64,000 nucleotides of DNA from Hymenobacter sp. 15J16-1T3B (lineage in GTDB: Bacteria; Bacteroidota; Bacteroidia; Cytophagales; Hymenobacteraceae). The notes under the pieces are model-generated. The model was not told the DNA's origin and made no database searches. It saw only the letters and a program-made list of their open reading frames with translations. Location of the stretch: positions 124,001-188,000 of the forward strand of contig NZ_JAJFAV010000011.1 of the NCBI RefSeq assembly GCF_020711235.1. The letters run 5' to 3'. Positions 9,894 to 19,132 of the stretch are shown here, piece after piece. Each line of letters opens with the position of its first letter. Position 1 is the first letter of the stretch. A program made the translations under genes and the position numbers.

Positions 9894-10060
9894 TGCGTTG
9901 TACTCGTACCAGACACTTGCACTGTTTCCTGATCAATCTAAATCAGTTACGAAATCCTGTGCAAAAAAATATTTCAAAAGTTCATAATAATTCAGCTTCC
10001 TTCCGTTTCTTTGTCCAACTGATCCAACATCATCACAACGTAATACAACCATACGGCTCC

Positions 10061-10417
10061 ATGAAAAAGCTCCTGACCACCGCTTGCTTGTCGCTCCTCC
10101 TGGTTGGCGCTTATGCCCAAGGCTCGCCTTCCATCTCGCAGCGGGCCACCGAGTTTACCCGCTCGCTTGCTCCCCATGTAGGCCTCGACGACGCGCGTCA
10201 GATTCAGGTAAAGCGCCTGACCGTCAGCCGCATGGAGAAAGAACAGGAAATCGACCGCATGTACGTTGGCGACGAAGCCGTGCGGCAGCCCAAGCTGCAA
10301 GCCGTGGCCGAAGAATACCGTACCAACCTCAAGTCGCTGCTCACGCCCGCGCAGTACCAGCGCTTCGAGCAATGGGCGGCTACGGCCCCGGCCAACGCCA
10401 CGGCCGCCAAGCCCTAA
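10061..10417 (+). CDS. Small secreted helical protein (Spy/CpxP-like)
   Basis: A 118-residue protein. MKKLLTTACLSLLLVGAYAQ is a good signal peptide; the mature part is predicted to be helical and charged (LDDARQIQVKRLTVSRMEKEQEIDRMY, then LQAVAEEYRTNLKSLLTPAQYQRFEQW). The closing LTPAQYQRFEQW resembles the LTPEQ motif of Spy/CpxP-type periplasmic chaperone or metal-resistance proteins, but the match is short. A long AT-rich leader of 230 bases separates it from the terminator upstream; no clear -7 box was found, TTTCTTTG at 10007-10014 being the closest. It converges on the 510-residue gene with only 3 bases between stops. The ATG 10061 is chosen by the signal peptide. Confidence 0.7.
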   Translation: MKKLLTTACLSLLLVGAYAQGSPSISQRATEFTRSLAPHVGLDDARQIQVKRLTVSRMEKEQEIDRMYVGDEAVRQPKLQAVAEEYRTNLKSLLTPAQYQRFEQWAATAPANATAAKP

Positions 10418-10420
10418 TTG

Positions 10421-11953
10421 TTAGCGGCCTTGCCGCTCCCGTTGCTGCTGCTGTTCCGCCATGTGCTGTAGCAGTAGCAGGGTTTGTTGCCAGAGGTTTT
10501 CGTACGGAATGATTTCAATTTCCGCAAACGCCTCGCCCGGTGGCGGCGTTTCGCTGAGCTTGCTCAGCAGCGCCTGCCCCTTCTTTTCGCAGGCCCTTGG
10601 GTCAAAATTCTCCTTGACCGTGAGCTGCAGCAGCCGGAACATCAGCCGGCTGCGCAGCGTGGCAGCGTCGCGCAAGTGGGCGCTTTCGTACTTACGCAGG
10701 CTTTCCAAGCGCGCCAGTAGGGCTTCGATGTTGCCCTCGCGCAGGTAGTGCAGAAACTGTAGAATCAGGATGGCTACGTTGTAGCCCTGCTTGTCGCGGC
10801 TGTGGTCGGGAATGCGCTGCACCAGCTGCGCGAAGTGCAGCGGCCGCAGCCCCGCTTCTTCGGGCCGCACGAAGTACAGATAGGCCCGAAATAAGTCCCA
10901 GCGCTGCCGGGCCGGCTGCGATATTTTCGTCACGAACGGGTTGTTCTGCATCCGCCGCAGCAAGTCGCCGGCCAGAGCGTAGTTGCCGTCGTGCATGGCC
11001 AGCAGGTAGTAATTTTCCAGGAACACGAACCAGTTGTTGCTGGAGCGGTGAAAGGCCGAGAGGTAGCCCTCGGCCACAGCCAACCCGTCCTTCAGGCGCC
11101 GGGCCCGCAGGTGCGCGTACACGTTGTAAAACTTCGTGAAGCGGCTGTCGAAGCGCCGGGCGTTCAGCTTGCCCCGCGCAAACAGGTTTTCGGCCTCCTG
11201 GGTAATGCGGATAATTTCCTCAAAGTTGCCGACCAGTTCCTGCAAAATCAGTTGCAGTTTGAGCAGCGTATCGTACACGTTGTAAGACGGCACGCGCTTG
11301 TATAGCGCCTCCAGCTTGCCGATAATAGTCGGCAGTTCCTGCAGCAGCCGGCGCCGCGACGACACTGAGCGCGCCAGATTCATTTTGGCCTCCCGAAACA
11401 AGTGCTGGGCCTGCTGCTCAACTTGGGCCGTTTGCTCTAGCTTTTCGAGCGCCTTGACGCTTTTGCGGTACTGCGAGTAGTCGTTGGTTTCGATGCTGAT
11501 GGCGCGCAGCATGTCCCAGGCCGTGATGGCGTGCTGCGTGAACTCGCCCTCGGTGGCCAAGCGCGCCACTTTGCGCAGCATCTGCGGCAGCAATATCCGC
11601 TCCCCTTCTCGCAGCAGCACGCTGGCTTGGTACAGCATCTCCAGGCACTGCTGCTCGTAGCGCCGGAAAGCAGGGTGCCGCGGATCCGTGTGGTCTAAAA
11701 AAAAGAGGTGGTTGAGGAGCTTTTGCTGCAAGCGCTGCTTAAGCTTGCGCACGGTGGCTTGGCTTTTGGCCGAGCCACTGTTGTACATGCGCTTGGCAAC
11801 TTGCAAGTTGCTGACATTGGTATCGGCCAACAGGATATCCAGCAGCTCTTCTTCGCGGGTGCGGGCATCGCCGCGGCCGGCAAACTCAATTAGCGGCACC
11901 GTCGTGAGCCTTCGGTTCGTCACAACCTTAGCCAAATTCACCAACTCATTCAT
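10421..11953 (-). CDS. Helical-repeat protein with possible DNA-binding N-terminus; candidate regulator of the repeat-peptide locus
   Basis: A 510-residue soluble protein I do not recognise by name. Residues ~30-85 (EEELLDILLADT, NLQVAKRMYN, KLKQRLQQKLLNHLFFLD) look like a small helix-turn-helix or winged-helix-type bundle; the remainder (~100-500) is a long series of helical pairs with TPR-like texture (LEKLEQTAQVEQQAQHLF, GLAVAEGYLSAFHRSS, YYLLAMHDGNYALAGDLLRRM), ending in a Gln/Glu/Arg-rich tail. There is no signal peptide or membrane helix. This HTH-plus-TPR-like outline is reminiscent of peptide-binding regulators of the RRNPP type in Firmicutes, but I see no sequence-level homology. It is transcribed divergently from the repeat-peptide gene, with 364 bases between starts. 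TAAGTTGA ends 3 bases before its ATG, suggesting a leaderless transcript. Gene is real; function is inference. Confidence 0.75.
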   Translation of the reverse strand: MNELVNLAKVVTNRRLTTVPLIEFAGRGDARTREEELLDILLADTNVSNLQVAKRMYNSGSAKSQATVRKLKQRLQQKLLNHLFFLDHTDPRHPAFRRYEQQCLEMLYQASVLLREGERILLPQMLRKVARLATEGEFTQHAITAWDMLRAISIETNDYSQYRKSVKALEKLEQTAQVEQQAQHLFREAKMNLARSVSSRRRLLQELPTIIGKLEALYKRVPSYNVYDTLLKLQLILQELVGNFEEIIRITQEAENLFARGKLNARRFDSRFTKFYNVYAHLRARRLKDGLAVAEGYLSAFHRSSNNWFVFLENYYLLAMHDGNYALAGDLLRRMQNNPFVTKISQPARQRWDLFRAYLYFVRPEEAGLRPLHFAQLVQRIPDHSRDKQGYNVAILILQFLHYLREGNIEALLARLESLRKYESAHLRDAATLRSRLMFRLLQLTVKENFDPRACEKKGQALLSKLSETPPPGEAFAEIEIIPYENLWQQTLLLLQHMAEQQQQRERQGR

Positions 11954-11956
11954 GGC

Positions 11957-11964
11957 TCAACTTA
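11957..11964 (-). promoter_or_regulatory. -7-like element TAAGTTGA 3 bases before the start
   Basis: On the minus strand TAAGTTGA fits TAnnTTnn and ends 3 bases before the ATG of the 510-residue gene. Confidence 0.35.
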
Positions 11965-12220
11965 GTTTTTTCGCTAAAATCGGCTTTCTGTGCTCCGTTT
12001 CTCTTCACAAAGAACAAGTCACACCGTTCCCCCGTTTTTCCTTGAACATACGGGGTGGCTAGGCGCAGCTTTGTATTGTGGATAATTGGTGCCGTTTGCA
12101 GGGCATCTTGTCACAGAAAGCAGCAAATTACTGGTAAAGCTAGTGCCCTTACTACGCTAAGCAGAAGGCCTTCGCCGCATTTATTCTTAATCTATCACAG
12201 CCAATAAAGTAGGAATTATA

Positions 12221-12250
12221 GTCACAGCAACAGCAGGTTCTTCCTTTACC
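12221..12250 (+). repeat. Upstream element copy A (shared with 16495-16524)
   Basis: Thirty bases beginning GTCACAGCA and ending TCTTCCTTTACC match 16495-16524 at 24 of 30 positions without gaps: 9 identical, 2 different, 3 identical, 4 different, 12 identical. Both copies lie upstream of a small ORF, and both are followed about 22 bases later by TTTGTRTC. The matching continues at the downstream start region (CCAAGGTCAT and ACTGCTAC). Confidence 0.7.
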
Positions 12251-12317
12251 CCGGGTATGTGCATGACCCAACTTTGTGTCAATCAAACATTTGACACCAC
12301 CCCAAAAACCCAAGGTC

Positions 12318-12545
12318 ATGCTGGAACTGCTACTCGCCGCCTTCTTCCAATTCAACTCGATCTTCGTTGGCGTTGACGCTGCGGCTACCGAAACCGGTGG
12401 CACGGGCTGGGGCGAAGGCCAGACAACCACGACGACCACCACGACCACGTCGGCTGATACCGGTGGCACGGGCTGGGGCGAAGGCCAGGTTACGACGACG
12501 GCCTCTTTCGACACGGGCGGCACCGGCTGGGGCGAAGGTCAGTAA
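12318..12545 (+). CDS. Small repeat-peptide precursor with three TGGTGWGEGQ units
   Basis: A 75-residue product. Residues 1-23 are a hydrophobic leader (MLELLLAAFFQFNSIFVGV then DAAAT); the rest holds three exact copies of TGGTGWGEGQ, at residues 26-35, 48-57 and 66-75, the last ending at the stop codon. The copies are joined by Thr-rich linkers (nine Thr in a row, then VTTTASFD). DNA copies 1 (12393-12422) and 2 (12459-12488) are identical over 30 bases; copy 3 (12513-12542) differs at four codons, all silent, so the peptide itself seems to be conserved. There is no Cys and no double-Gly cleavage leader. The ATG 12318 is preferred to GTG 12276. Divergent from the 510-residue gene and 63 bases before a peptide-receptor/permease operon. 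Could be a secreted signal, a RiPP-like precursor or a cell-surface repeat peptide. Confidence 0.7.
   Translation: MLELLLAAFFQFNSIFVGVDAAATETGGTGWGEGQTTTTTTTTTSADTGGTGWGEGQVTTTASFDTGGTGWGEGQ
12393..12542 (+). repeat. Three 30-base coding repeats (TGGTGWGEGQ)
   Basis: Units at 12393-12422, 12459-12488 and 12513-12542. Units 1 and 2 are identical; unit 3 has four substitutions, each at the third codon position and silent (ACC/ACG, GGT/GGC, ACG/ACC, GGC/GGT). Confidence 0.95.
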
Positions 12546-12568
12546 TCGGGCGTTCAGCGGCACTTCGG

Positions 12569-12576
12569 TATCTTGG
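12569..12576 (+). promoter_or_regulatory. Candidate -7 element TATCTTGG before the receptor gene
   Basis: Seven-of-eight fit to TAnnTTTG, 32 bases before the ATG at 12609. It would allow the receptor-permease operon to be expressed apart from the peptide gene. Confidence 0.35.
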
Positions 12577-12608
12577 CCGGCCTTACCTCAGCGGTAGCGC
12601 TTCTGCCC

Positions 12609-14339
12609 ATGCTCCGATTCGCCGTTATTTGGGGGCTGCTCAGCGGTATTCTTGGCCTGACCGCCTGCTCGCCCTCCTCCTCACCCCACTCCGCCAGCGC
12701 CCCCACCGTGCGGGTCTGCTGGCCCCGCGACCCGGAGTCGCTCAACCCGGTGACGCTGCCCAACGCGTACGCCGTGCAGGCCAACAACCTGCTGTACCAG
12801 AGTCTGCTTACCGTGGACGGCCCCACCCGCCGCCACGTGCCCTGGCTGGCGGCCGACCTACCCGCCGTCGAGCACCGCGACTCCCTTACATTCCTGCACT
12901 ACCGGCTGCACCCGCAAGCAACTTGGGACAACGGCACTCCCATTCTGGCCCAAGACGTAGTTTTTACCCTTAAAGTGCTGAACTGCCCGGGCCTGCCCAA
13001 CGAAAGCCTGCGCGGCCTCGTCAGCTTTATCCGGGACGTGCAAACGGACGCGGCTGACCCGCGGCGCTTTACGCTTGTCTGCCGCGGCTACGCCCCCGAA
13101 TACCGCGACAACAGCGGGGAATTCCCCATTCTGCCCGCTTACCTAGTCGATCCGCAGGCGCGCCTTCGCTCGGTCCCGCTGCAGCAGCTGACGCAAGCCG
13201 ACAGTTCGGTAGCGAGTGTGGCCGCCGTCCAGACGTTCCAACAAGAATTCAATCAAGCTGCCCGCTGGCGCGACCCGCGCACCTTGCGTGGCAGCGGCCC
13301 TTACCAGTTGGCCGGCTGGCAAGCCGGACAGCAAGTCACCTTTGTGCGCAAGCCTCGCTGGTGGGCCGACGGCCTCAAACCCGCCACGCCAGCCCTGACG
13401 GCCAACCCCGGCCGAATCGAATTTCACGTGGTGCCTAACCCCGCCACGGCGTTGCTGGCGTTGCGCCGCGGCGAGCTGGACGTGTACCCGAACATGCCCG
13501 GCCCCGATTTTGCGCGGCTCAAGACCAGCGACAGTTCCTCCTTCCGCTTCTATTCACCCGCTTCTTACCGCGTGGTGGTGCTGGAAATGAACGTGCAGCA
13601 GCCCGCGTTGCGCGACGCCCGTACCCGCCAAGCGCTGGCGTTGCTGGTCGACTACGACCGGTTGCTGCGCGCCACCCAGTACGGGCAAGGACAGCGCACC
13701 ACCGGCCTCATCAGCCCGCGCGAAAAATGGGTGTACCACGACAGCTTACCGCTGCGTCCTTACGCCCCGGCTGAAGCAGCCACCCTGCTGCAGCGGGCCG
13801 GTTGGCAGCGCGGCCCCGACGGCTGGCGGCGCGCCGGGCAGCCCTTGACATTGCGCCTGTTTTACAGCGCCAGCGACCGAACGTACGCCACCGTAGCGTT
13901 GCTCTTTCAGCAGAGCGCCCGGCAAATTGGGCTACCCGTCACGCTGCACCCGACCGAAGCCGGGCAGCTGTCGGAGCTGCGGCGCAACGGCGAATTCGAC
14001 TTAAGCCTGCGCACGCTCTACGGCAACCCGTTTGCGTACGACCTGCGCCCCTTGCTCCACACAGGCAGCATCGGCAGCGGCGGCGCCAACCGGAGCCGCT
14101 TTGGCAACGCCGCTTCGGACCGCCTGCTCGAAACCATCTACGCCACGGAGGATTCGGTGAGCAAAGCGCGGCTGCTGCGCCGACTGCAAACGTTGTTGTA
14201 CCAGGAAGTGCCGTTTACCCCGCTGTTTTTTGAGCCCAACCGCCTTGCCGTCTCGCGGCGCTTCGCGCACGTGCGGCCTAGCGGCCTGGAGCCCGGCTAC
14301 GACCTACCATCGTTCACCTTGGCCCCGGCGCAACCCTAA
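12609..14339 (+). CDS. Oligopeptide-type ABC transporter substrate-binding lipoprotein (SBP family 5)
   Basis: A 576-residue DppA/OppA-like receptor. The start MLRFAVIWGLLSGILGLTAC gives a lipoprotein signal with lipobox LTAC (Cys20), so it should be membrane-anchored. Family landmarks: PRDPESLNPVTL at the start of the mature domain, the Trp-Asn-Gly segment ATWDNGTPILAQDVVFTLK (cf. FHDGTPLTAEDVVFSL), GSGPYQLAGWQAGQQVTFVRKPRWW, RQALALLVDYDRLL, and the C-terminal LLRRLQTLLYQEVPFTPLFF. Family 5 receptors bind di- or oligopeptides, nickel or sugars; the substrate cannot be read from the sequence. It heads a tight operon: the first permease starts 4 bases after its stop. The repeat-peptide gene ends 63 bases upstream, which makes a peptide ligand attractive but unproven. 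Confidence 0.9.
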   Translation: MLRFAVIWGLLSGILGLTACSPSSSPHSASAPTVRVCWPRDPESLNPVTLPNAYAVQANNLLYQSLLTVDGPTRRHVPWLAADLPAVEHRDSLTFLHYRLHPQATWDNGTPILAQDVVFTLKVLNCPGLPNESLRGLVSFIRDVQTDAADPRRFTLVCRGYAPEYRDNSGEFPILPAYLVDPQARLRSVPLQQLTQADSSVASVAAVQTFQQEFNQAARWRDPRTLRGSGPYQLAGWQAGQQVTFVRKPRWWADGLKPATPALTANPGRIEFHVVPNPATALLALRRGELDVYPNMPGPDFARLKTSDSSSFRFYSPASYRVVVLEMNVQQPALRDARTRQALALLVDYDRLLRATQYGQGQRTTGLISPREKWVYHDSLPLRPYAPAEAATLLQRAGWQRGPDGWRRAGQPLTLRLFYSASDRTYATVALLFQQSARQIGLPVTLHPTEAGQLSELRRNGEFDLSLRTLYGNPFAYDLRPLLHTGSIGSGGANRSRFGNAASDRLLETIYATEDSVSKARLLRRLQTLLYQEVPFTPLFFEPNRLAVSRRFAHVRPSGLEPGYDLPSFTLAPAQP

Positions 14340-14343
14340 CTAG

Positions 14344-15351
14344 ATGATGGTCCGAGCCTTGGTATTGCGCGTGCTTCGGGCACTGGGCACGGCTTGGTTG
14401 ATTGCCTCCGCCGTGTTTCTGCTGAGCCGCAGCTTACCGGGCGGCGGTCCGCACTTGTTCACCGATGAGCGCGCCGGTACCTTCGGCCAGCAAACCACGG
14501 CCGAGGCCCAGTACCAACGTCGACTGGAGCTGCAGACCCCGCTGTTTTATTTCCGCTTGCTGCCGGGACGGTGGTATGGCACTCCCAATCAGTATCATAC
14601 TTGGCTGGGTCAGTTAAGCCGGGGCCAGTTAGGCCAGTCTTACCGGGACGACGTGGCCGTCACGGAACACCTGGCCCAGGCGCTGCGCCTGACCCTCCCT
14701 TTGACAGTTAGTGCGCTGTGCGTGGCCGCTGGCCTTGGGTTGCTGCTGGCCCAATGCGCCGCCCGCCGCCCGCGATGGTACCGGTGGCTGCTCTCGGCAG
14801 CGTATTTTCTGGACAGCCTGCCGCTGTTCGTCATAGGCATGGTGCTGCTCTTGTTGCTCGCCAATCCGGATTTTCTTTCCCTGTTGCCAGCCTACGGGTT
14901 GCCGGCTGACTATTCGGCCGCCGGCGCGTTATCCTGGTCGGCAGTACCGTATTTCGTCCTGCCGGTGCTGGCCCTCACGTTGAGCAGTCTGCCGGCGCTG
15001 CTTCTGCCCCTCATGGGCGCCCTGCGTGAGCAATGGCAACAGCCCTATATGGTGACAGCCCGGGCCAAAGGCGTTTCCCCGCGGCAGGCCGGCTGGCGTC
15101 ATGCCTTGCCTAACGCTGCCCCCGTATTCATCACCCGCCTCGCCGACCTGGCGCCGGGCGTGGTGGCCGGGGCGGTAGTCATCGAAGTAGTATTTGCCCT
15201 GCCGGGCATGGGCCGGCTGCTGGCCGAAGCTGCCGCGGCCCGCGACGTTCCCGTGCTCGTGGGCGGTGTGCTGCTCATAGCGGCCGTGCGCCTGCTGGCC
15301 TGGCTGCTGGCCGACGTTGCCAACGCTCTTCTTGACCCGCGGCTGCTGTGA
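14344..15351 (+). CDS. ABC transporter permease, DppB/OppB type
   Basis: A 335-residue inner-membrane protein with six or so hydrophobic helices: N-terminal ALGTAWLIASAVFLLS, then LTLPLTVSALCVAAGLGLLLAQ, WLLSAAYFLDSLPLFVIGMVLLLLL, YFVLPVLALTLSSLPALLLPLM, and two C-terminal ones. The EAA loop that docks the ATPase is YMVTARAKGVSPRQAGWRHALPN, close to the consensus ARAKGLSxxxVxxxHxLRN. This is the first of two permeases that form the channel for the receptor encoded upstream. Its TGA stop overlaps the GTG start of the second permease (GTGA), indicating translational coupling. No gene for the matching ATP-binding subunits is in the window. Confidence 0.9.
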   Translation: MMVRALVLRVLRALGTAWLIASAVFLLSRSLPGGGPHLFTDERAGTFGQQTTAEAQYQRRLELQTPLFYFRLLPGRWYGTPNQYHTWLGQLSRGQLGQSYRDDVAVTEHLAQALRLTLPLTVSALCVAAGLGLLLAQCAARRPRWYRWLLSAAYFLDSLPLFVIGMVLLLLLANPDFLSLLPAYGLPADYSAAGALSWSAVPYFVLPVLALTLSSLPALLLPLMGALREQWQQPYMVTARAKGVSPRQAGWRHALPNAAPVFITRLADLAPGVVAGAVVIEVVFALPGMGRLLAEAAAARDVPVLVGGVLLIAAVRLLAWLLADVANALLDPRLL

Positions 15352-16391
15352 GTTGGACTGGTCCGCGTTTTCGCTTGATGAGCCGCTGGTTGGCAGGGCT
15401 ATGGCTGTTGGCACTGCTGTTGGCCGCTGCGTGGGCGCAGTTTGGTCCGGCAGCAGGGCAGCCTGCGCCCCTGAACCTGGAGCAACTTAGCCATCCGCCA
15501 TCCGCCCAGCACTGGCTGGGCACTGACCCCTATGGGCGCGACGTGCTTACCGACCTGATACTGGGCACGCGCCAATTGGTCATCATTAGTTTGCCAGCAG
15601 CGCTGTTGGCGTCGGCATTGGGTGCGGTATTAGGAGCCGCTGCGGGTTACTGGGGCAACACCGGTGTACGGTTGCGCACCAGCGCAGCAGTGGTCTTGCT
15701 AATCGGGATTGTAGGCGCATTGGTTACTGAGCCGGCGGAGGCGGGCTGGTGGCTGCTGGCTGCGGCCGGCTTGTCGGCTTGCACCTATGCTTCGTTTTTA
15801 CCCGCAACCACCCTCGCCTTGCCCTTGGATTGGGCGGTGCTAGGTGCAGCCGCTTGGCTCGGAGCAGTGCCCCGTTTGGTATTGGTTCTGTCCCTGGTTG
15901 CCCTGCATGCACCGGCTGGGTGGTGGCTGGTCAGCATCCTGACCCTTACTTGCTGGCCTAGCACCGCCCGCCTCACGCGTACGTTGGTGCAGCAATTGCG
16001 TCAGCGCCCCTACGTAGAGGCCGGACGCGCCGCGGGGTATTCCACCGGCCGCCTGCTGTGGGTGCACCTAGCGCCCAACGTGTGGCCCAGTCTACGCAAC
16101 ACCCTGCCGCTCAACTTAAGTATCTGCTTGGGACTGCAAACCACGCTTGGGTTTCTCGGCATCGGCTTAAGTCCTGATCAGGCCGACTGGGGACTCACCC
16201 TGGCCAACGCCCGGCTGGAACCCGGCGCGTGGTGGCTGGTGCTAAGTGGGCTGCTGGCCCTCACCTGCACTATGGCCGCTATCTACCATCTGCTACCGGC
16301 TTCTGATGCCGGTTTAGCGCATTTACCCACTGCTAGCACAGCAGCCGACGTCACAAATAGCCAACAAATATCTACATCCATCGAGCAATAG
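15348..16391 (+). CDS. ABC transporter permease, DppC/OppC type
   Basis: A 347-residue membrane protein. HWLGTDPYGRDVLTDLILG is the hallmark of the DppC/OppC permease N-terminal region, followed by TM helices and an EAA loop YVEAGRAAGYSTGRLLWVHLAPNVW, then LGFLGIGLSPDQADWG, also typical. The centre (~residues 85-190) is longer and more hydrophobic than in usual DppC proteins, and there is a polar Thr/Ser/Gln tail of about 30 residues. The GTG start overlaps the previous stop by 4 bases; an in-frame ATG lies at 15378 as an alternative. The dppD/dppF-type ATPases normally following are absent here, so the transporter must borrow them from elsewhere or use a separately encoded pair. Confidence 0.87.
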   Translation: MSWTGPRFRLMSRWLAGLWLLALLLAAAWAQFGPAAGQPAPLNLEQLSHPPSAQHWLGTDPYGRDVLTDLILGTRQLVIISLPAALLASALGAVLGAAAGYWGNTGVRLRTSAAVVLLIGIVGALVTEPAEAGWWLLAAAGLSACTYASFLPATTLALPLDWAVLGAAAWLGAVPRLVLVLSLVALHAPAGWWLVSILTLTCWPSTARLTRTLVQQLRQRPYVEAGRAAGYSTGRLLWVHLAPNVWPSLRNTLPLNLSICLGLQTTLGFLGIGLSPDQADWGLTLANARLEPGAWWLVLSGLLALTCTMAAIYHLLPASDAGLAHLPTASTAADVTNSQQISTSIEQ

Positions 16392-16648
16392 GATGCGCTG
16401 ATTAATGACTATTTATCAGCTTAATACGCCATGTTACAATTACACCACCCTATGTATTATCGATTTTACAGAGCTAATCAGCCACAATTTTCATGTCACA
16501 GCAGTAGCCCAATCTTCCTTTACCGACGCTAAACCATACGCTTCATTTGTATCGAAAACGCTGCTAAACGCCGCTGCCCAAAGGCTCTATCAGTCTCTAA
16601 GCTGCGCGCTTTCTTAGCCAAGGTCATTGCATTTACTCCACTGCTACA
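16392..16648. other. AT-rich intergenic region upstream of the second small ORF
   Basis: Between the second permease and the 60-residue ORF. It carries element copy B and a -7-like TTCATTTG (16542-16549). An open frame at 16405-16617 covers the element but has no signal of being coding. Much of the region looks like a diverged duplicate of 12181-12333. Confidence 0.5.
16495..16524 (+). repeat. Upstream element copy B (shared with 12221-12250)
   Basis: Second copy of the 30-base element (24/30 identical, ungapped). It is followed by TTTGTATC at 16546-16553, CCAAGGTCAT at 16618-16627 and ACTGCTAC at 16640-16647, each with a counterpart at 12273-12280, 12310-12319 and 12326-12333. In copy B the position of the peptide ATG is ATT. 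Confidence 0.7.
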
Positions 16649-16831
16649 ATGCAAGCCAATACACTGCCGCCTAATTCCTCGCCGGAAGCGGGCTCAGACG
16701 TAGTCAGTACCACAGATGGTCTGTTGGTAACGGACGCGTCAAAAGTCGAAGAAGCCTTGCGTCGCGGAGCCGCCGTGCGCATCGGAGATATAATAGTCGG
16801 TCTGTTCCCCACCTTGGAAGGGGCCGCTTAG
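16649..16831 (+). CDS. Second small ORF of the peptide locus (60 residues), hypothetical
   Basis: A 60-residue product with no recognised family: a polar N-terminal half (MQANTLPPNSSPEAGSDV) and an amphipathic/hydrophobic C-terminal half (KVEEALRRGAAVRIGDIIVGLFPTLEGAA). No signal peptide. It follows a region that duplicates the promoter and start region of the repeat-peptide gene, including CCAAGGTCAT, but in that copy the ATG has become ATT with a 6-base insertion, and the homologous reading frame stops early. It may therefore be a different small peptide under the same control, or a chance ORF in the remains of a second peptide gene. A strong terminator follows 70 bases later, which supports a transcript ending here. 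Confidence 0.4.
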   Translation: MQANTLPPNSSPEAGSDVVSTTDGLLVTDASKVEEALRRGAAVRIGDIIVGLFPTLEGAA

Positions 16832-16901
16832 ATACTATCTATCCGGAGATTGGTCACTTGATTAGACCCTTCTCTAGTAGGTTGTTGCAATAGGTGTGTC
16901 G

Positions 16902-16932
16902 AAAAACCGCAGGCTATGCCGGCGGTTTTTTT
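16902..16932 (+). terminator. Terminator of the peptide/permease locus
   Basis: AAAAACCGC (16902-16910) pairs with GCGGTTTTT (16922-16930), followed by more T; an 11-base loop contains an additional short AGGC/GCC-type pairing. Confidence 0.85.
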
Positions 16933-16959
16933 GCGTTTGGCCTTTGCCTAACCGAGCAC

Positions 16960-16995
16960 AAAAAAGCCGCCGCCTTTTCAGGCAGCGGCTTTTTT
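16960..16995. terminator. Bidirectional terminator downstream of ftsH
   Basis: AAAAAAGCCGC (16960-16970) pairs with GCGGCTTTTTT (16985-16995), with an inner GCC/GGC pair. Lies 13 bases past the ftsH stop and works for both strands. Confidence 0.85.
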
Positions 16996-17008
16996 GCGTT
17001 AAAGCGGA

Positions 17009-19132
<2,124 letters not shown>

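Follow-up and report, generated by a model that had tools for sequence, protein, structure and literature searches.

Peptide signalling through a cytoplasmic tetratricopeptide repeat (TPR) receptor is known so far from Bacillota and their phages, where the RRNPP or RRNPPA systems (PlcR-PapR, NprR, Rgg-SHP, ComR-ComS, PrgX, Rap-Phr, AimR) combine a small propeptide gene and an adjoining TPR-like receptor gene with an oligopeptide-type importer and a promoter element upstream of the propeptide. According to passages of a survey in which 13,513 complete bacterial genomes were searched, RRNPPA genes occur in several Firmicutes genera, and all RRNPPA receptors but Rap carry an N-terminal helix-turn-helix (HTH) DNA-binding domain (PMC9765709). 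The available parts of an analysis of Firmicutes and viruses describe the canonical RRNPP propeptide leader as having basic residues, PptAB-exported members of the family being exceptions, and mention Bacteroidetes once, as a prevalent gut phylum (PMC10075063). Here we describe a locus in a 64,000-nucleotide stretch (the window) of the 6.33-Mb genome of Hymenobacter sp. 15J16-1T3B (genome G000, contig C2). It comprises a 75-amino-acid (aa) precursor gene, a divergently transcribed gene for a 510-aa protein, here named P510, genes for a substrate-binding protein (SBP) and two permeases, and a terminal small open reading frame (ORF). With somewhat better than even chances, this locus is an RRNPP-like peptide-signalling module of Bacteroidota that is built of other parts and has no detectable kinship to RRNPP proteins. 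The logic of such a module is known; its proteins, its phylum, its leader and its copy numbers are not. Among the matches listed for the open-licence PubMed Central literature, there was no description of the locus or of RRNPP-like signalling in Bacteroidota.

The locus shares with the RRNPP family the small propeptide gene beside a TPR-like receptor gene, the oligopeptide-type importer, and a promoter element upstream of the propeptide. RRNPP propeptides have 10-100 aa and lie beside the receptor gene; the precursor described here does so with 75 aa, some of its relatives being longer. At 510 aa, P510 is just over the receptor size of about 250-500 aa, and its TPR superhelix is predicted. Unlike the known systems, the locus belongs to Bacteroidota, carries its transporter genes within it, encodes a leader lacking basic residues and a receptor candidate matching none of the known receptors of the PDB by sequence, and has a putative HTH domain that could not be confirmed.

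The precursor sequence begins MLELLLAAFFQFNSIFVGVDAA; its three TGGTGWGEGQ units, read by an earlier note from the DNA of this locus, are indeed exact and occupy residues 26-35, 48-57, and 66-75. Units 1 and 2 are identical in DNA, and unit 3 differs only synonymously. Precursors of relatives share the architecture of a hydrophobic leader nearly devoid of Lys and Arg, a T/A/S-rich linker, and 1-18 short units with the core G-x-(G/S)-G-W. Across 79 loci (78 loci of relatives plus the window, with copies counted by their Trp), the leader follows roughly the consensus M-[LF]-[EN]-L-[LI]-A-I-A-L-[LF]-Q-x-[AS]-[ST], in which Gln-11 is conserved at 96%, Leu-9 at 89%, and Ala-8 at 84%. Around the Trp of each unit, Gly is found at position -4 in 98% and at -1 in 91%, and the residue after Trp is mostly Gly, Asp or Glu. 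Two or more units are present in 58/79 loci and a single one in 21/79; single-unit precursors mostly measure ~45-70 aa, and the longest precursor of a relative 271 aa.

Over nine positions, units of one array share a mean identity of 0.978, versus 0.519 for units of different loci. Of the 1002 unit pairs within arrays, which come from 58 loci, 809 encode the same amino acids, and 694 of these differ in DNA; the within-array pN/pS over all 1002 pairs, obtained by simple site counts from pairs that are not independent of one another, is 0.052. The identity of the units is therefore not merely a matter of recent duplication, and selection keeps the copies of an array to one peptide. One peptide per locus, differing among loci, is the pattern expected of a ligand with a specific partner. 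The precursor ORF as a whole is under purifying selection (Ka/Ks 0.08-0.32, six pairs from four close genomes), which, together with its constant position in relatives, argues that it is more than a chance ORF. Its stop codon precedes the SBP match by a median of 99 nt (73-134 nt in 67/72 loci), a distance measured to the start of the profile match rather than to the start codon; in the window, the gap to the SBP ORF is 63 nt. Array length correlates with SBP position (r 0.91 over 72 loci), and the constant gap and this correlation point to an operon-like arrangement. In Adhaeribacter soli (L084/L180), P510 and SBP are separated by three precursor genes in tandem.

Yeast alpha-factor and the precursors of multi-core ribosomally synthesized and post-translationally modified peptides (RiPPs) likewise consist of a leader and multiple copies of a single short peptide. 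In contrast to these, the gene described here is bacterial and lies beside an importer, with no processing or modification enzyme noticed alongside. The tandem Phr propeptides Phr3T and Phr105 likewise hold several identical or near-identical pheromone units; 1-4 repetitions per Phr propeptide are cited in a passage of PMC11343458, against 1-18 copies here. Weak matches were all that Pfam and PHROGs returned for the precursor (New_glue, E 0.012; a PHROG of unknown function, E 0.021), and these are probably driven by composition. The text GGTGWG was also searched in open-licence PubMed Central papers and yielded, among the matches listed, apparent 16S primer sequences.

Table 1. Features of the locus in window coordinates
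Feature	Position	Strand	Basis
P510, 510-aa all-helical ORF, proposed cytoplasmic TPR-like peptide receptor/regulator	10421-11953	(-)	ORF, homologs, AlphaFold2, Foldseek
Distal copy of GTCACA-N14-TTCCTT (12018-12043) and TTTG box (12070-12073), promoter-like	12018-12073	(+)	pattern search, alignment
Proximal element copy (12221-12246), then CAACTTTG, TTTG at 12273-12276	12221-12276	(+)	pattern search, alignment
Inverted repeat GTGTCAA-N8-TTGACAC, just 5' of the precursor start	12276-12297	n/a	alignment
Precursor, 75-aa propeptide-like gene: leader without Lys/Arg, T/S-rich linker, three TGGTGWGEGQ units	12318-12545	(+)	
SBP_bac_5 protein, proposed peptide receptor of the importer	12609-14339	(+)	Pfam E 2.2e-58
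DppB/OppB-like permease	14344-15351	(+)	BPD_transp_1 E 4.3e-27
DppC/OppC-like permease	15348-16391	(+)	BPD_transp_1 E 4.7e-13
Third element copy, TTTG at 16546-16549, upstream of the terminal small ORF	16495-16549	(+)	
Terminal small protein, 60 aa, core DG...ALR.G.A..IG..VG	16649-16831	(+)	

The gene set is conserved throughout the family Hymenobacteraceae. P510 was found in 146/150 family genomes, mostly as a single gene and often in at least two copies in genus g3. Forty regions around P510 genes, taken from 38 genomes of all six genera and including some second copies, were inspected; an SBP gene was found in 39/40 and each permease gene in 37/40, and in 37/40 the SBP and both permease genes follow P510 divergently. 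By eye, a small precursor lies divergent to P510 in 38/40 regions, including all 37 that have the full transporter; the exceptions, L072 and L102, are second copies of P510. Thus the gene set noticed earlier in a single genome recurs in 37/40 regions, and close relatives carry an intact repeat ORF. A second set consists of 80 loci from named genomes, the best 80 of 468 relatives; it overlaps with the first and is not independent of it. The nearest P510 matches among the named genomes are those of H. jeollabukensis, H. edaphi, and H. gummosus. Here, the SBP and the two permeases (PERM1 and PERM2) are each divergent to P510 in 72/77 loci with at least 900 bp of upstream DNA; the five exceptions are L164, where the contig ends, L169, L182, L193, and L205. 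A strict small-ORF filter recovered a precursor in 50/77 of these loci versus 20/1540 mononucleotide shuffles, and the loci that failed it turned out on inspection to have mostly longer arrays, GTG starts, or Lys in the leader. A looser filter, written after this inspection and hence descriptive rather than blind, found the precursor in 78/80 loci; it picked the wrong frame in L172 and L186, where the right ORF was seen on inspection. L169 and L205 have neither precursor nor transporter. The starts of P510 and the precursor are 364 nt apart in the window, and the median over 78 loci is 368 nt. P510 and the close SBP are also absent together: all four P510-negative genomes have a distant SBP only (E 1.5e-9 to 4.7e-6), and a close SBP is present in 4/4 P510-bearing genomes chosen by the author. 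Tandem P510 duplicates occur in several relatives of genus g3 (L095, L096, L098, L099), and at L100 (G073) two P510 copies flank one SBP, the permeases not being found in that stretch.

P510 is predicted to form a TPR-like superhelix. The AlphaFold2 model, built on 79 aligned sequences, consists entirely of helices (mean predicted local distance difference test score, pLDDT, 89; predicted template modelling score 0.85), with a helix at residues 2-13, further helices at 33-43, 49-57, and 62-85, and helical pairs from there to the C-terminus. Foldseek comparison with the PDB returned TPR superhelices (designed TPR, LGN, MalT domain III) rather than an unrelated enzyme family; the helical character read from the sequence by the earlier note is borne out. 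The best match (E 5.6e-4) is the anti-sigma factor DdvA. The arbitrium receptor AimR (6hp3) matches at E 8.3e-3 with probability 1.00, template modelling scores of 0.36/0.45, and 14% identity, but only at rank 40 among many TPR proteins, and the model comparison offers no evidence of descent. A viral structure library gave general TPR-type matches, none at E <= 0.001. By sequence, the TPR signal is weak (TPR_12 in 4/32 P510 members, best E 3e-4), and an hmmsearch of the P510 profile against PDB chains at E up to 1 hit only KWOCA_73 (E 0.0069) and no known RRNPP receptor. The HTH-like start proposed by the earlier note fared less well. Three helices do occupy residues 33-85, but the N-terminal 96 residues modelled alone reach a mean pLDDT of 70 with a best PDB match at E 2.6, and Pfam returned weak single-member HTH matches (best E 0.0085). 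Since the N-terminal part has no PDB match above noise, DNA binding by P510 is suggested by the architecture. The gene has a Ka/Ks of 0.05-0.12 for six pairs from four close genomes.

The transporter genes directly downstream of the precursor had been recognized in the earlier note as encoding an SBP-5 receptor and two permeases, and Pfam agrees, with one SBP_bac_5 and two BPD_transp_1 proteins. The SBP starts with a lipobox-like sequence, LTAC, as read by eye. Among NCBIfam models, the SBP matches best to a nickel-binding model and the permeases to nickel/oligopeptide (Opp/Nik) models. The three proteins thus fit the class of Opp/Dpp/Nik importers, but all scores are far below the curated cut-offs, and the search for an ATPase gene within the cluster found none.

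The second small ORF lies, as noticed before, behind a duplicated upstream region: positions 12221-12250 and 16495-16524 agree at 24/30 bases. This duplication is part of an element, GTCACA-N14-TTCCTT, of which the locus has three copies, two upstream of the precursor (the proximal one ~97 nt from its start) and one upstream of the terminal ORF. In an alignment of the P510-precursor intergenic region from seven genomes, the blocks GTCACA, ~14 nt, and TTCCTT(T) are followed by a TTTG box, and related forms are visible across the family. GTCACA-N13-17-TTCCTT occurs five times in the window genome, three of these matches being at the locus (reversed-pattern control, 2). Eight genomes of the genus hold 34 matches with gaps of 12-17, of which 22 are at the locus as judged by coordinate comparison with P510 positions (reversed control, 6), and for a longer form that extends to the TTTG box, 120 genomes give 31 matches, 23 of them at the locus (reversed control, 1). 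The element is therefore concentrated at the locus and not private to it. The combination of TTCCTTTA and, ~20 nt on, nAnCTTTG resembles the Bacteroidota -33/-7 promoter, and GTCACA would therefore sit at an activator-binding position; P510, the divergent and co-conserved gene, is the candidate activator. Of the aligned genomes, only the closest relatives retain the full inverted repeat next to the precursor start, which may serve as an operator or form a hairpin in the mRNA. An Rfam scan of 10000-17400 gave no match at the gathering threshold.

A search for a regulon beyond the locus pointed to a ~250-aa secreted-looking protein with the element in two genera (G004, G109), which was dropped since the upstream element was present in 2/28 homolog loci; the off-locus matches of the window genome on contigs C37 and C39 revealed no convincing target. 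The copy at L258 (G000, C37) precedes a gene for a 199-aa secreted-looking protein.

Proteins with the core DG...AL(R)xGxA..(I/V)G..VG are encoded downstream of PERM2 in many relatives. A strict text pattern finds the terminal ORF in at least 29/70 loci, a lower bound because it misses cases seen by eye (e.g., L067 and L075, which share their contigs with L138 and L141), and 10 of those 29 have the relaxed element upstream. The terminal ORF has a Ka/Ks of 0.13-0.51 (ten pairs, with a fifth genome added), and Pfam gave no match for its product.

In the proposed signalling module, the small gene would yield a propeptide whose hydrophobic leader brings it to or across the inner membrane, where proteases would free one or more copies of a species-specific Gly/Trp peptide of the GGTGWGEGQ type. 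The SBP_bac_5 protein and the two permeases, together with an OppDF-type ATPase encoded elsewhere, would import the peptide into the cytoplasm, and the imported peptide would bind to the TPR-like superhelix of P510. Peptide-bound P510 would then change how the precursor-transporter operon and the terminal small gene are transcribed from their GTCACA-N14-TTCCTT promoters, with an autoregulatory loop as the outcome. The gene set and its conservation, purifying selection on the peptide, the predicted TPR-like fold, and the local element are documented here. We infer that the propeptide is exported and cleaved, that the peptide is imported and binds to P510, and that P510 binds DNA, and the sign of regulation is likewise inferred; for cytoplasmic binding after Opp-type import, the basis is the genomic adjacency of the SBP and permease genes.

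The earlier note had drawn its peptide-signalling or recycling reading from proximity and orientation, and comparative evidence now carries this reading beyond proximity. Several observations nevertheless weigh against it. A simple transfer of the RRNPP scheme is opposed by the unconfirmed DNA-binding domain, by the leader, and by the outer membrane: the leader has the hydrophobic core of a Sec-type signal but not its basic N-terminus (Lys and Arg are absent from the first 18 residues in 72/78 precursors, two wrong-frame picks included), and there is no visible route by which a peptide of such size could cross the outer membrane or stay inside it. The Foldseek E-values of P510 are modest, and its matches are TPR proteins of many functions. 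The cluster lacks a detected ATPase gene, and the sole oligo_HPY-matching frame of the genome, with 692 aa and two matches, lies away from it. L182 and L193 have a precursor with no transporter on that side of P510. A direct search with the window precursor gives three genomes at E < 1e-20, followed by matches at 2.5e-8 and weaker; few genomes have a match at E < 1e-3 by sequence alone, and many of the matches in the 68/150 genomes reached at E <= 1 are off the locus, so that precursors in most relatives are assigned by place and architecture. The strict element is found within 400 nt of P510 in only 34/77 loci and its relaxed form in 43/77, the longer form is present in only 22/120 genomes, and 12/34 matches in the eight genomes as well as 8/31 of the long form are away from the locus. 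With respect to the membranes, a non-Sec exporter or YidC-like insertion of the precursor is possible, as speculation, and peptide sensing may be confined to the producer's own periplasm, as self-monitoring rather than a population signal.

Other explanations assign the peptide a different role. It might be a secreted bioactive peptide, unmodified RiPP-like or microcin-like, made from a multi-core precursor, with the terminal protein conferring immunity or assistance and with the transporter and P510 serving production or self-protection. The terminal ORF and the precursor do share a promoter element in the window and several relatives, and a leader with repeated cores is a feature of multi-core RiPPs as well. 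We nevertheless regard this as unlikely: the transporter belongs to an importer class, P510 is nearly universal in the family, unlike the patchy distribution of bacteriocin loci, and no modification enzyme was noticed among the recurring genes, in an annotation that covered part of the flanking ORFs and used no RiPP-specific library. The T/A/S-rich linker and the Gly/Trp-rich repeats would also suit an adhesive or structural peptide of the surface or matrix, whose fragments the transporter would recycle while P510 would be an ordinary regulator. That 21/79 loci encode a single unit, mostly in proteins of ~45-70 aa, and that near-identity within a locus goes with divergence between loci, pointing to a specific partner, makes this improbable. 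Both the RiPP-like and the surface-peptide alternatives are thus less likely than the signalling module.

Two further explanations center on the transporter. Copies numbering 1-18 and held to one sequence are more natural for released ligands than for a small membrane protein acting as partner or gate of the SBP and permeases, its leader forming a permanent transmembrane helix and its GGxGW tail a tethered periplasmic ligand; moreover, some P510-like genes of other families are accompanied by a leader-type small ORF but by no transporter. Such a membrane partner has a small chance of being correct, given that the conservation of Gln-11, Ala-8, and Leu-9 in a leader with nearly no Lys or Arg exceeds the needs of a plain export signal and that the gene has an operon-like placement upstream of SBP. 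Alternatively, a nutritional oligopeptide or nickel transporter could be controlled by a P510 that responds to imported peptides generally, the precursor being a by-player. The NCBIfam assignments to nickel and oligopeptide models agree with this, but their scores fall far short of the cut-offs, the precursor accompanies all 37 full transporters of the first set, and the close SBP disappears together with P510 in 4/4 genomes, which leaves a nutritional system improbable.

Outside the family, relatives of P510 are found in 70/241 genomes of the order (E <= 1e-5, family members included) and in 34/247 genomes of the class (E <= 1e-10, three family members included). Among 33 order loci outside the family (L215-L247), only L216 (Rhodocytophaga) has the SBP-permease set on the divergent side; in L235, SBP and permeases are on the opposite side of P510. 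By eye, a leader-type small ORF was recognized on the divergent side of the P510-like gene in 9/33 order loci (L215, L216, L221, L228, L231, L234, L235, L246, L247), three of them from genome G240, and in 5/17 class loci (L305, L310, L314, L317, L318), where L314 and L317 belong to one genus and the start of the P510-like gene was misplaced in several of the 17. A leader filter retained 7/33 P510-like loci outside the family versus 6/149 control genes (Fisher p 0.0027); at least three of the seven look spurious (L218, L225, L226), and L215, L216, L228, L246, and L247, seen by eye, were missed. The association of leader-type ORFs with P510-like genes outside the family is thus suggestive. Given its occurrence in both order and class loci, a wider reading may be entertained tentatively, at somewhat less than even chances for all its parts together: cytoplasmic TPR-like receptors with divergent propeptides would be spread across Bacteroidia independently of the RRNPP systems of Bacillota, and Hymenobacteraceae would have a core quorum-sensing system by re-import that possesses an importer and a promoter element of its own and whose precursors contain as many as 18 near-identical copies of the pheromone.

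If the signalling module is real, a near-universal equivalent in Hymenobacteraceae would extend the same logic of signalling to a phylum of Gram-negative bacteria, pose the problem of how such peptides deal with the outer membrane, and provide dozens of natural peptide/receptor pairs for studies of specificity.

Some observations concern the surroundings of P510 and its relatives. At L314 and L317, both of family f25, two tandem leader-type ORFs of 48 aa, nearly identical and with the C-terminal sequence ...IIWETNEK, lie on the divergent side of a P510-like gene. Other P510 paralogs (L222, L224-L227) adjoin a ~145-aa gene, which presumably resembles DUF1232/YkvA, and no convincing leader-type ORF was seen there. 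In the window, the stretch preceding P510 (4775-10417) includes genes for a PKD-domain protein and a 118-aa secreted-looking protein, and also, as labelled by eye, genes for a hybrid sensor-kinase-like protein and for a regulator of the LytTR type. The gene order of this stretch is kept in several Hymenobacter loci (e.g., L065, L066, L071, L078, L104).

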